Source: Halobaculum sp. CBA1158
GTDB taxonomy: Archaea > Halobacteriota > Halobacteria > Halobacteriales > Haloferacaceae
Length of the DNA: 64,000 bases
NCBI RefSeq assembly: GCF_021431925.1
Contig: NZ_CP090371.1
Span: 2,418,001-2,482,000 of the forward strand
Direction of reading: 5' to 3'
The notes under the pieces are model-generated. The model was given only the letters and a program-made list of their open reading frames with translations. It had not been told where the DNA came from and ran no database searches. This document shows, piece by piece, positions 4,391-17,432 of the stretch (its first letter is position 1; every line of letters begins with the position of its first letter). The position numbers and the translations under genes are program-made.

Positions 4391-5047
4391 TCAATGACAG
4401 ATCGCCCGAAGGTCGTCGAGTCCGTCGATGTCGTAGGTGGGCGTGACCGAGAGGTTCCAGTCCTCGCGGTGCGGACGGCGGATGAACGCCGAGTCGACGC
4501 CGGCGTTGTCGGCGGCCTCGATGTCGGACTCGTTGTCGCCGACGAACAGCGCGGTGTCGGCCTCGAGGTCCGCGAGCGCCCGGTCGATGTAGTGGCTGTT
4601 GGGTTTCTTCAGGCGGAGGCTCTCGACGGTCGGCTCGCGGCCGTAGGCTGTGTCGAAGAGGTCGCGGACGCCGAAGTGGTCGAGGAGGAACTCCACCGTC
4701 TCATGCTGGTTCGAGGAGACGATCCCGAGGGGGGCCGAGAGGTCACGTAACACGTCGATGTCGTCGTACAGGCGCTTGTTGCCCTCGCGGACCTCGCGGC
4801 GCTGGGCCTCGAAGGCCGTCCGGTCGCGCATCGCCCAGAACTCCCGCGGCGTGAGGTCGTAGGTGTCGCACACCTCCTCGACCTGCCCGGGCGAGACGCC
4901 GACGACCATCGACTCGACGTGGTCGGGGTCGGGGTCGGCCACCGAGAGCGCCTCGAAGGCGTCCCAGGCGGCCTCGTGGAGCACGTCGTAGTGGGTGCGC
5001 CCCACGAGCACCCCGTCGTTGTCGAAGACGATCGCGTCGTACACCAT
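4391..5047 (-). CDS. HAD-superfamily hydrolase (phosphatase-like)
   Basis: A 218-residue haloacid-dehalogenase-like hydrolase, probably a small-molecule phosphatase of the phosphoglycolate phosphatase/beta-phosphoglucomutase group. HAD motif I is FDNDGVL (nucleophile and acid/base Asp), motif II the Ser in GIVSSNQ, motif III Lys in LRLKKPN and motif IV VGDNESD. A helical cap lies between motifs I and II. The start at MVYDAIVFD is chosen because the first motif follows at once; two more ATG codons lie directly upstream (5050, 5056). The substrate cannot be read from sequence. Divergent from the FAD oxidoreductase. Confidence 0.88.
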   Translation of the reverse strand: MVYDAIVFDNDGVLVGRTHYDVLHEAAWDAFEALSVADPDPDHVESMVVGVSPGQVEEVCDTYDLTPREFWAMRDRTAFEAQRREVREGNKRLYDDIDVLRDLSAPLGIVSSNQHETVEFLLDHFGVRDLFDTAYGREPTVESLRLKKPNSHYIDRALADLEADTALFVGDNESDIEAADNAGVDSAFIRRPHREDWNLSVTPTYDIDGLDDLRAICH

Positions 5048-14517: not shown

Positions 14518-14602
14518 GCGAGGGTGGCTGAGCTTGGCCAAAGGCGGCGGACTTAAGATCCGCTCCCTCAGGGGTTCAAGGGTTCAAATCCCTTCCCTCG
14601 CA
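14518..14602 (+). tRNA. tRNA-Leu (anticodon TAA)
   Basis: An 85-nt class II tRNA. The acceptor stem GCGAGGG pairs with CCCTCGC (14595-14601), with discriminator A at 14602. The anticodon arm is GCGGA-CTTAAGA-TCCGC, giving anticodon TAA. A variable arm follows (CTCCCTCAGGGG), then the T-arm AGGGTTCAAATCCCT. No CCA is encoded and no intron is seen. Three further copies of its last 22 bases follow downstream. Confidence 0.96.
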
Positions 14603-14894
14603 GTCACGAGGAGTGTAACGACGAGTGACGAGTAGGAGGGGTTTGAAGCAGGGAGGAGCTTCGCTCCGACCGTGGTTCAAATCCCTTCCCTCGCATGAGT
14701 GGGGCCGAAGGCCCCCGAATCGTTCCGGAAAATTTGAACTATGCCGGACGCGCGCAGCGCAGCGAGCACGTCCGGATGTGGTTCAAATCCCTTCCCTCGC
14801 AGTCACGAGGAGTGTAACGACGAGTGACGAGTAGGAAGGATTTGAAGCAGGGAAGAGCTTCGCTCCGACCGTGGTTCAAATCCCTTCCCTCGCA
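14603..14894 (+). repeat. Tandem array of tRNA-Leu 3'-end copies (att-like)
   Basis: The last 22 bases of tRNA-Leu (from GGTTCAAATC to the final CTCGCA, 14581-14602) recur exactly at 14674-14695, 14780-14801 and 14873-14894. Spacings are 93, 106 and 93 bp. The first and third intervals are near-identical (start GTCACGAGGAGTGTAACGAC, contain the hairpin GGAGC-TTC-GCTCC). The middle interval differs and holds GGGGCC-GAA-GGCCCC and a CCGGACG/CGTCCGG pair. There is no gene here. The form is that of stacked attachment sites left by integration or small passive elements at a tRNA 3' end. Confidence 0.85.
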
Positions 14895-14913: not shown

Positions 14914-15423
14914 TCACGCCGGATCGATCGCGTCGCGCCGCCGGACTAGCACCACGGCGCGCGCGAGGAGGGCGGCTCCGGCGACGGCGACCAGGCCGTA
15001 GTGTATCACGAACGCGCGCTCCAGCGTCGCCTGTGAGAGCGTGAACCCACCGAACAGAGCGGTCGCGAGCGCGGGTCCGAGCGCCGGTATCGACAGGGTC
15101 GCCTCCACGCCGATCTGTCCGAGGGAGAACGACAGTCGCGTCCACGGAAGCAACAGTCCCGTGTAGGCGTACAGCCCCGCGACTGGTACGCCCAGCGTCG
15201 CGAGGGCGACGGCGGCGGGACGACAGGTCGCGACCGCGACGGCGATCCCGAGGGTCGCGGCGACGAGCGCACCGACCGCGAGCGCGACGCGGGTCGTCTC
15301 CGCGACGCCCGCCGGGATCACGTGCGCGGCGACTGCGAGGTCGCCGAGGGCGACGGCGGCCACGACGATCAACAGCGCCGGTTCGAGCGCGTCGGTCGGG
15401 TCGTCGATCGGCTCGGAGGGCAC
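14914..15423 (-). CDS. Cytochrome-b-like small membrane protein
   Basis: A 169-residue protein with about five hydrophobic segments (about 16-38, 44-66, 68-90, 115-133, 138-160). The segment YTGLLLPWTRLSFSLGQ followed by ...FGGFTLSQATLERAFVIHY closely recalls the N-terminal domain of cytochrome b (GYLLPW, then a Gly-rich loop and an H-x3-P type helix). Only one His remains in the second haem helix, and the usual first His pair is not clear, so full bis-haem binding is doubtful. It could be a truncated or divergent cytochrome b relative. No Rieske or quinol oxidase gene is adjacent; the Rieske gene is 20 kb away. Confidence 0.7.
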   Translation of the reverse strand: MPSEPIDDPTDALEPALLIVVAAVALGDLAVAAHVIPAGVAETTRVALAVGALVAATLGIAVAVATCRPAAVALATLGVPVAGLYAYTGLLLPWTRLSFSLGQIGVEATLSIPALGPALATALFGGFTLSQATLERAFVIHYGLVAVAGAALLARAVVLVRRRDAIDPA

Positions 15424-15808: not shown

Positions 15809-17161
15809 CTACCGTCGCGCCGGATGCGACGCGGACAGGCGCGGGCCGTCCCCGAGCAGTCGCTCGCGCAGCGTCTCGTCGGGGTCGGGCTCGGCGAGGA
15901 GGTCCCGCGCGCGCAACTCGGGGACGACGAGGTCGACGAAGTCGTCGAGGCTCCCCGTCCGCAGCACCTCCTTCACGTTGAAGCCGTCGACGCCGACCTC
16001 CTCGTGCCAGCGGGCGAGCTCGTCGGCCACCTGCTCGGGCGTGCCGACGACCACGGGCGAGGTGGTGCCGAGCCCGGAGAACTGCGCGACCTCTCGGACG
16101 GTCCACTCGCGGTCGGGGTCGGACTTCGTGAACGCGTTCATCGTCCCCTGGATCGCGTCGGTCTCGATGTGCTCGATCTTCTGGTCCGGGTCCAACTCCG
16201 AGAGGTCCATGTCGAGAAAGCCCGACAGCAGCGCGAGCGTCGCCTCCACGTCGACGGTGTCGAGGAGGCGCTCGTACTTCGCCTCGGCGGCCGCCTCCGT
16301 CTCGGCGACGACGGGGACGACGCCCGGGAAGAAAGCGAGGTCGTCGGGGTCTCGGCCGAGGTCGGCCGCGCGCTCGCGCAGGTCCTCCATGTACTCGCGG
16401 ACGCCGGGTTCGGTGGGCTGCGAGCAGAACACCGCCTCGGCGTTGGCGGCGGCGAAGTCGCGGCCGCGATCCGAGGATCCGGCCTGGAAGATCACGGGCG
16501 AGCGCTGGGGCGACGGCTCGCAGCCGTGCGGCCCGGGCACGTCGAAAAACTCGCCGTCGTGGTCGATCTCGTGGACGCCCGCGGGGTCGCTGAAGGTGCC
16601 GGACTCGCGGTCGCGGACGACGGCGTCGTCGTCCCAGGAGTCCTCCCACAGCGCGTAGCAGACGTCCATGAACTCGTCGGCGCGGTCGTATCTGGTCTCC
16701 TTGTCCATGCGCTCGTCGAGCCCGAGGTTCCGGGCGGCGGACTCGAGATACGAGGTGACGACGTTGAACGCGACGCGGCCGTCGGTGAGGTGGTCGAGGG
16801 TCGAGAACTCCCGCGCGAGCTGATACGGGTGGGTGTAGGTGGTCGACTTCGTGACCGCGAACCCGAGCGAGTCGGTGACCTCGGCCATCGCGGGCACGAG
16901 GTAGCCGGGGTCGTTCGACGGGGTCTGCACGGCGCGCTCGATGGCCGTCTCGCGGTCGCCGCCGTACACGTCGTAGATGCCGCGCACGTCCGCGAAGAAG
17001 ACGGCCGCGAAGCCGCCGCGCTCGGCGGTGCGGGCCACGTCCGTCCAGTACTCCCTGTCTTTGTACTCGGCGGATCGATCCGCGGGATGCGTCCAAGAGC
17101 CCGGGGAGACGTGCTCCACGGAGTTCATCGTGAAGAGGTTGAGGTGGATGCCGTCGCTCAT
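15809..17161 (-). CDS. LLM-class flavin-dependent monooxygenase (NtaA/SnaA/DszA type)
   Basis: A 450-residue FMNH2-dependent monooxygenase of the nitrilotriacetate/EDTA/dibenzothiophene-sulfone subfamily of the luciferase-like group. Typical blocks: WTHPADRSAEYKDREYWTD, GFAAVFFADVRGIYDVYGG, LARAFSTLDH-like LAREFSTLDHLTDGRVAFNVVTS, and HDGEFFDVPGPHGCEPSPQR with VIFQAGSS. Length (about 440-460) is normal. The start at 17161 (MSDGIHLNLFTMN) gives the expected first strand. It would need a reduced-flavin partner; none is adjacent. The substrate is probably a chelator, sulfonate or similar (inference). Confidence 0.9.
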   Translation of the reverse strand: MSDGIHLNLFTMNSVEHVSPGSWTHPADRSAEYKDREYWTDVARTAERGGFAAVFFADVRGIYDVYGGDRETAIERAVQTPSNDPGYLVPAMAEVTDSLGFAVTKSTTYTHPYQLAREFSTLDHLTDGRVAFNVVTSYLESAARNLGLDERMDKETRYDRADEFMDVCYALWEDSWDDDAVVRDRESGTFSDPAGVHEIDHDGEFFDVPGPHGCEPSPQRSPVIFQAGSSDRGRDFAAANAEAVFCSQPTEPGVREYMEDLRERAADLGRDPDDLAFFPGVVPVVAETEAAAEAKYERLLDTVDVEATLALLSGFLDMDLSELDPDQKIEHIETDAIQGTMNAFTKSDPDREWTVREVAQFSGLGTTSPVVVGTPEQVADELARWHEEVGVDGFNVKEVLRTGSLDDFVDLVVPELRARDLLAEPDPDETLRERLLGDGPRLSASHPARR

Positions 17162-17432
17162 TACGTCGTGTTCGGAGTCGGAGGGTGGTAAGAGGCGGTG
17201 GAATCGGCCGGGCGTGCCTGTACTCGGAGTAGTGAGTGGTGTCGCTGATGGAGTCGAGACTGACGACGTCGGTCCCGGTTGCACGAGGGTATCATAGAAC
17301 AGTTCATACGCTTCGTTGACCGCTCCGTGAATCGGTCAGTACAGACCGTATACTCACCGCTGTTTCACTTCCCCACGATGTCGAATGAAACCGGCGATAC
17401 GGCCTGAACCGCCACTCATCCTCGAATTGTTC

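Follow-up and report, generated by a model that had tools for sequence, protein, structure and literature searches.

Why does the 3' end of a single tRNA gene recur several times in succession immediately behind that gene, with no integrase gene nearby? The question is raised by a 64,000-nucleotide stretch of the Halobaculum sp. CBA1158 genome (contig NZ_CP090371.1, positions 2,418,001 to 2,482,000; hereafter the window), in which the end of tRNA-Leu(TAA) is followed by further copies of itself. The original prediction, made from sequence alone, was that this reflects either repeated integration of a very small gene-free unit or the leftover att sites of lost elements stacked in order. To address this, we first examined the locus itself, then looked for comparable arrangements behind other tRNA genes of this and other genomes, and finally compared the arrays with known mobile and repetitive systems. 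The locus turned out to be one case of a general phenomenon in haloarchaea: in four genomes from three families of Halobacteriales, 72 of 171 tRNA genes are followed by one to six copies of their own 3' end, and a typical copy is the terminal arm of a short, gene-free, structured unit.

The array behind tRNA-Leu(TAA)

The predicted repeat holds exactly as described: the terminal 22-mer GGTTCAAATCCCTTCCCTCGCA occurs at 14581-14602, 14674-14695, 14780-14801 and 14873-14894, giving spacings of 93, 106 and 93 bp. Intervals 1 and 3 with their flanking copies are 97% identical over 115 nt, whereas interval 2 differs. Chance is excluded, as a pattern for the core of the unit (see below) matches twice in the window and never in 100 shuffles. 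The claimed absence of an integrase was also borne out: matches to the tyrosine-recombinase profile PF00589 in this genome all lie outside the window, and none is within 37 kb of a tRNA gene on the main contig. Two features had escaped the original prediction, namely that each interval contains the reverse complement of the tRNA T-arm and folds into two hairpins, and that the interval cores recur behind other tRNA genes of the same genome. The features of the array, all on the plus strand, are:

14518-14602: tRNA-Leu(TAA), the anchor gene (ARAGORN and Rfam RF00005, 52.8 bits); its last 20 nt (14583-14602, T54 to the discriminator base) are the repeated segment
14603-14695: unit 1 (core type A, 93 bp), absent between the tRNA and the type-B unit in the congener G006
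14603-14635: H1 hairpin of unit 1 (GTCAC...GTGAC)
14636-14647: 5' arm of unit 1, the reverse complement of the T-loop and 3' T-stem strand (GAGGGGTTTGAA)
14648-14675: type-A core of unit 1, GCAGGGA-GGAGCTTCGCTCC-GACCGTGG
14676-14695: copy 1 of the tRNA-Leu 3' end (exact)
14696-14801: unit 2 (core type B, 106 bp), counterpart of the single full unit behind tRNA-Leu(TAA) in G006
14732-14738: 5' arm of unit 2, ATTTGAA (reverse complement of the T-loop)
14739-14781: type-B core of unit 2, with ACGCGCGCAGCGCAGCGAGCACGTC at 14748-14772; related cores lie behind tRNA-Met, -Gly and -Arg genes of the same genome
14782-14801: copy 2 of the tRNA-Leu 3' end (exact)
14802-14894: unit 3 (core type A, 93 bp), near-identical to unit 1, with H1 at 14802-14834, 5' arm at 14835-14846 and core at 14847-14874
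14875-14894: copy 3 of the tRNA-Leu 3' end (exact)

A search of the Rfam 15 models recovered only the tRNA itself in the window. ARAGORN additionally calls a tRNA-Trp at window positions 4426-4513, which Rfam does not; as an intron-bearing tRNA-Trp is called at positions 2098567-2098744 of the main contig (C1) of this genome (hereafter G000), this is probably a false call. The downstream neighbors of the array on the minus strand (15809-17284 and 14914-15423) are a luciferase-like monooxygenase (PF00296) and a small membrane protein with a cytochrome-b-like match (PF13631, PF00033).

Anatomy and distribution of the units

A search of the same genome with the array found its cores behind other tRNA genes, namely those for Val, Met, Gly, Tyr, Arg and another Leu. 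We therefore took the 44 tRNA genes found in this genome and searched the 900 bp downstream of each for copies of its own last 20 nt, from T54 to the discriminator base; sixteen of the 44 have one to three copies, mostly exact. The same was done for G006 and for genomes of two other families (G061 and G026). In total, 72 of 171 tRNA genes carry 117 downstream copies, 70 of them exact. At two or fewer mismatches, 65 of 171 tRNAs find their own end downstream, whereas the ends of other tRNAs of the same genome are found in only 31 of 7132 comparisons.

A typical unit shows the same order of parts: a T-containing trailer and a hairpin (H1), often with tandem G.A mismatches; the reverse complement of the T-loop and 3' T-stem strand of that same tRNA; a conserved, mismatch-bearing core; and then the copy. 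The arms and core fold into a long imperfect hairpin (H2) on the tRNA-sense strand, with conserved G.G mismatches. The median length is 128 bp including the copy, with a range of 69-344 bp apart from two spurious rows of 28 and 30, and no genes were seen in the units. The complementarity of the 5' arm is 77-98% over tRNA positions 54-63, falls to 61% at position 64 and reaches background by 67-68, with a weak further match at the discriminator end (exact complement of the last 4 nt in 22% versus 5% in the control). Of the 117 copies, 95 have a clear complementary arm and 22 do not at this threshold, some of the latter being partial, displaced or spurious. Cores come in a few types shared across families, among them A (CAGGGA...GACCGTGG) and B (TAGAC...GGCGTGG). 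Besides this main class there are hairpins whose 3' arm is only an acceptor-end copy (e.g., behind Leu-caa and in the S module of Arg-gcg). Further, behind tRNA-Leu(CAA) in G006 there is a longer, 3'-half copy from the anticodon arm onward with a hairpin inserted in the variable arm; similar downstream sequence is present in G026 and G061, i.e., in three families.

For 54 type-A sequences, the proposed H2 pairs in 92.5% of cells, with 97 double-sided changes against 31.5 in shuffles and far fewer when the partners are slid. The tRNA-sense strand folds better than its complement in 95 of 117 units. For the three Leu units the fold is as unusual with DNA parameters as with RNA parameters (z = -7.0 and -7.1, respectively; -4.5 for the opposite DNA strand). 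A wobble test aimed at separating RNA from DNA gave 12 G.T versus 8 A.C in the arms, i.e., no wobble preference, and 10 versus 2 in the inner stem of type A, an excess that an RNA would favor; taken together it is undecided. Loop motifs of DNA type (C-GNA-G, GNNA) are common in the tandem-GA hairpins, many of whose tetraloops are GNNA with a pyrimidine at the third place rather than GNRA. However, an allied motif is not enriched in the window and type-A inner loops show the GNA motif on the other strand, so we do not use these motifs as proof. A comparison of T-runs, as a test for termination before the array, showed no difference at four Ts between tRNAs with and without arrays.

A hairpin pattern matches 40 of 44 good genomes of the order, with no match of the reversed control in any of 59. 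In a wider sample of the phylum, 17 of 19 genomes of the order match, against 1 of 101 outside it, and that unrelated-looking match lacks the features of the units. A type-A core pattern that includes the first bases of the T-loop was scanned over 84,980 species and gave at least 80 loci, the 80 examined all being from Halobacteria, including Haloferax, Haloarcula, Halorubrum, Natrinema, Natrialba and Halorhabdus. Of 81 matches, 76 have a tRNA 62-331 bp upstream on the same strand, four lie too close to the end of the stored sequence to tell and one has none. Of these 76 copies, 49 are identical to the end of that tRNA and 60 differ by two or fewer positions. Because these patterns include T-loop bases, they do not bear on whether similar cores exist away from T-loop copies. 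The presence of the arrays in dozens of independent genomes rules out an assembly artefact.

Variation among relatives and comparison with integrative elements

Comparison of G000 with G006 provides an empty site at tRNA-Arg(GCG): in G006 the tRNA is followed directly by TTCCTTCACTCACTTCG, whereas in G000 it is followed by two units and then TTCCTTCACTCACTTCG, placing the join exactly at the tRNA 3' end (position 73). Across 11 congeners, the modules at this locus differ in number and order and include chimeras with the H1 of one unit and the H2 of another, with joints in about 15-nt identities; two congeners have none. At tRNA-Leu(TAA), G006 has one type-B unit followed by a remnant like the H1 of the type-A unit; thus, the A-B-A order in the window most likely arose by copying of the A unit or of an A-B block. 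Comparable orders are X-Y-X at Val-cac and X-Y-X-Y at Tyr in G026. An identical, static array in all related species, which had been named beforehand as an observation that would count against the original prediction, was therefore not found.

Cores at least 90% identical occur behind different isoacceptors of one genome more often than label shuffles predict (15 versus a mean of 5.9, p about 0.001), including 40 of 40 identical nucleotides behind Ser-tga and Pro-tgg in G061. In the tRNA-Met(CAT) and tRNA-Arg(TCT) arrays of G061, some copies differ from the local tRNA but equal the orthologous tRNA end of G026, suggesting transfer of units or ancestral relics. The copy nearest to the tRNA is not significantly better preserved than distal ones (9 versus 5 arrays, 12 ties, p = 0.42), so ordered addition next to the tRNA is not demonstrated. 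G026 also has a dense cluster of some 13-14 tRNA genes within 2.7 kb (C1:2635124-2637763), several of low score, resembling a virus- or plasmid-borne tRNA set.

Searches of phage records and plasmids with the 314-bp array gave nothing convincing beyond short matches, and the exact 22-mer has no match in IMG/VR. A loose hairpin pattern was also scanned against the IMG/VR contigs, giving at least 120 matches, of which 80 were examined. Among the examined loci with GC above 50% or a core motif, it returned mostly recurring GATTCGAAATCC sequences that look like tRNA-Ser variable arms, and a single true hit, which is host flanking DNA behind a tRNA-Glu. In contrast, G061 offers what we read as an ordinary integrative element beside such an array. 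Here a hairpin unit (within C1:1220300-1222300) carries the end of tRNA-Arg(TCG), but its tRNA (C1:1166485-1166559) is 54 kb upstream. Next to the unit are a tyrosine-integrase gene (PF00589 and PF02899) and a 13-nt copy, CCTGCAACGCCCA, that has no hairpin and lies beside, not within, the unit. The apparent 54-kb element would thus have entered at the tRNA end and pushed the array away.

Possible origins of the arrays

The above observations establish the architecture of the units, their tRNA specificity, their spread through Halobacteriales, the precise presence or absence of whole units at the tRNA 3' end, reordering and chimeras within a genus, and the sharing of near-identical cores among different tRNAs of one genome. 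Beyond this we are in the realm of inference. The reading we favor, at a probability of about 0.5, is that the stacked tRNA ends are the joints of a modular, gene-free cassette array anchored on the tRNA 3' end and living at the DNA level. In this view, units are inserted, deleted and duplicated by recombination or template switching across the 13-22 nt tRNA-end repeats, and cores spread between tRNA genes by exchange through the nearly universal palindromic arms GATTTGAA...TTCAAATC. H2 probably acts as a single-stranded DNA hairpin that either invites template switching or is recognized by an as yet unidentified recombinase, in a way that resembles the attC sites of integrons; units 1 and 3 of the Leu array would be recent copies of one another around a type-B unit. 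However, no enzyme, circle or transposition event was seen, and the structure is also what a conserved RNA would show. Moreover, gain and loss cannot be told apart at single loci, and short-repeat deletion is known in haloarchaea (PMC3119063), so many of the differences may be losses. No host benefit is shown; the arrays may be selfish or neutral passengers kept harmless because the tRNA end is always restored.

The interpretation in the original prediction is thus partly supported: the units are small, gene-free, stacked in order at a tRNA 3' end, variable among relatives and not a static ancestral array, and repeated integration of a very small gene-free unit remains a live form of the explanation, but that they are att sites left by lost integrative elements is not supported. 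The transcribed RNA genes that it named as an alternative are not excluded.

Of the alternatives, a transcribed, structured RNA survives best, although we consider it unlikely. Here the arrays would be read through from the tRNA promoter, the hairpins would act in tRNA 3' processing, termination or as small RNAs, and the tRNA-end copies would be kept for RNase Z or tRNA-binding proteins; expression itself is in this view inferred from sequence and structure alone. It is favored by the position of the units on the same strand close behind tRNA genes in nearly all tested cases, the strand-specific folding, the strong covariation, the low z-score of the RNA fold and the excess of G.T over A.C in the inner stem. 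Against it are the absence of units behind more than half of the tRNA genes and behind orthologous tRNAs of congeners, their rapid turnover, the lack of an Rfam match, the equally unusual single-stranded DNA fold, the lack of wobble preference in the arms and the many GNNA rather than GNRA tetraloops.

Somewhat less likely is a mutational by-product without a dedicated enzyme, whereby replication or transcription stalls at tRNA genes and the nascent strand snaps back and switches template at the T-arm, making inverted and direct copies that later expand by short-repeat recombination. This would be consistent with the 5' arms being inverted copies of the adjacent tRNA end that weakly extend to the discriminator end, with the acceptor-only hairpins behind Leu-caa and Arg-gcg, with short-repeat-mediated indels documented in haloarchaea (PMC3119063) and with the chimeric joints. 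However, it does not by itself explain a few core types conserved across families of an order, nor why the process is confined to Halobacteriales.

Debris of ordinary tyrosine-integrase elements, each copy being an attR whose element lost its genes, is the least likely: although T-loop-to-3'-end duplications are real att sites in haloarchaea (a 22-nt tRNA-Ala duplication and a 43-nt tRNA-His repeat bound elements in Haloquadratum; PMC3119063) and a genuine integrase element sits at tRNA-Arg(TCG) in G061, independent deletions would not give one compact two-hairpin layout with identical cores at different tRNAs, the att of the G061 element looks different, no integrase lies within 37 kb of a tRNA gene on the main contig of G000, and the viral contigs examined gave only the host-flank hit.

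None of the known families tested has all its defining features present in these arrays. As in integron cassette arrays (attI/attC, IntI), stacked units lie in one orientation behind an anchor, one strand folds better, and units are gained, lost and reordered; the imperfect hairpin that ends each unit, with a conserved base, fixed mismatches and a variable terminal stem, may correspond to a folded attC site, a resemblance that rests on geometry and covariation alone. The differences are that no integrase was found beside the arrays, the units carry no genes, the anchor is the host tRNA and the arms are tRNA-specific. With the tRNA-targeting tyrosine-integrase elements of archaea (SNJ2, HF1-like and other haloarchaeal integrative elements) they share the direct repeat of the tRNA 3' end at the joint, but they have no cargo or integrase between the repeats, several units per tRNA and hairpin arms complementary to the tRNA. 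Like REP/BIME palindromic repeats and MITEs, they are short, gene-free palindromic elements in many copies with shared cores homogenized within a genome; however, they sit behind tRNA genes in nearly every case tested (76 of 77 assessable type-A matches, with a pattern that includes the T-loop start), and their arms follow the local tRNA instead of being fixed terminal repeats. The repeat-mediated deletions of Haloquadratum walsbyi (PMC3119063), precise indels between 7-22 nt direct repeats including tRNA duplications, offer a likely route for loss of units, but not for their origin, tRNA-specific inverted arms or conserved cores. CRISPR arrays likewise have short direct repeats separated by unit-length intervals and anchored at one end, but here the intervals are related palindromic elements rather than unique spacers and the repeats are the tRNA end.

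A more far-reaching possibility, unlikely on present evidence, is that haloarchaea carry an integron-like system without cargo genes, in which the T-loop of tRNA genes serves as the insertion site and an unidentified recombinase moves tiny hairpin cassettes that always rebuild the tRNA 3' end, so that many tRNA genes act as a capture site. Our literature searches, confined to open-licence papers so that an earlier description elsewhere is possible, found only prophage-type partial tRNAs in haloarchaea and reviews of archaeal integrases, and no description of these arrays.

The arrays supply a natural, fast-evolving marker at many defined sites per genome, which makes the mechanism directly testable in populations of culturable haloarchaea. 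A feature found in most genomes of an archaeal order, and not described in the literature reached here, would bear on how tRNA genes become hot spots of recombination and integration, on why partial tRNA copies must not be read automatically as prophage scars, and on whether archaea have a hairpin-based cassette recombination of their own.
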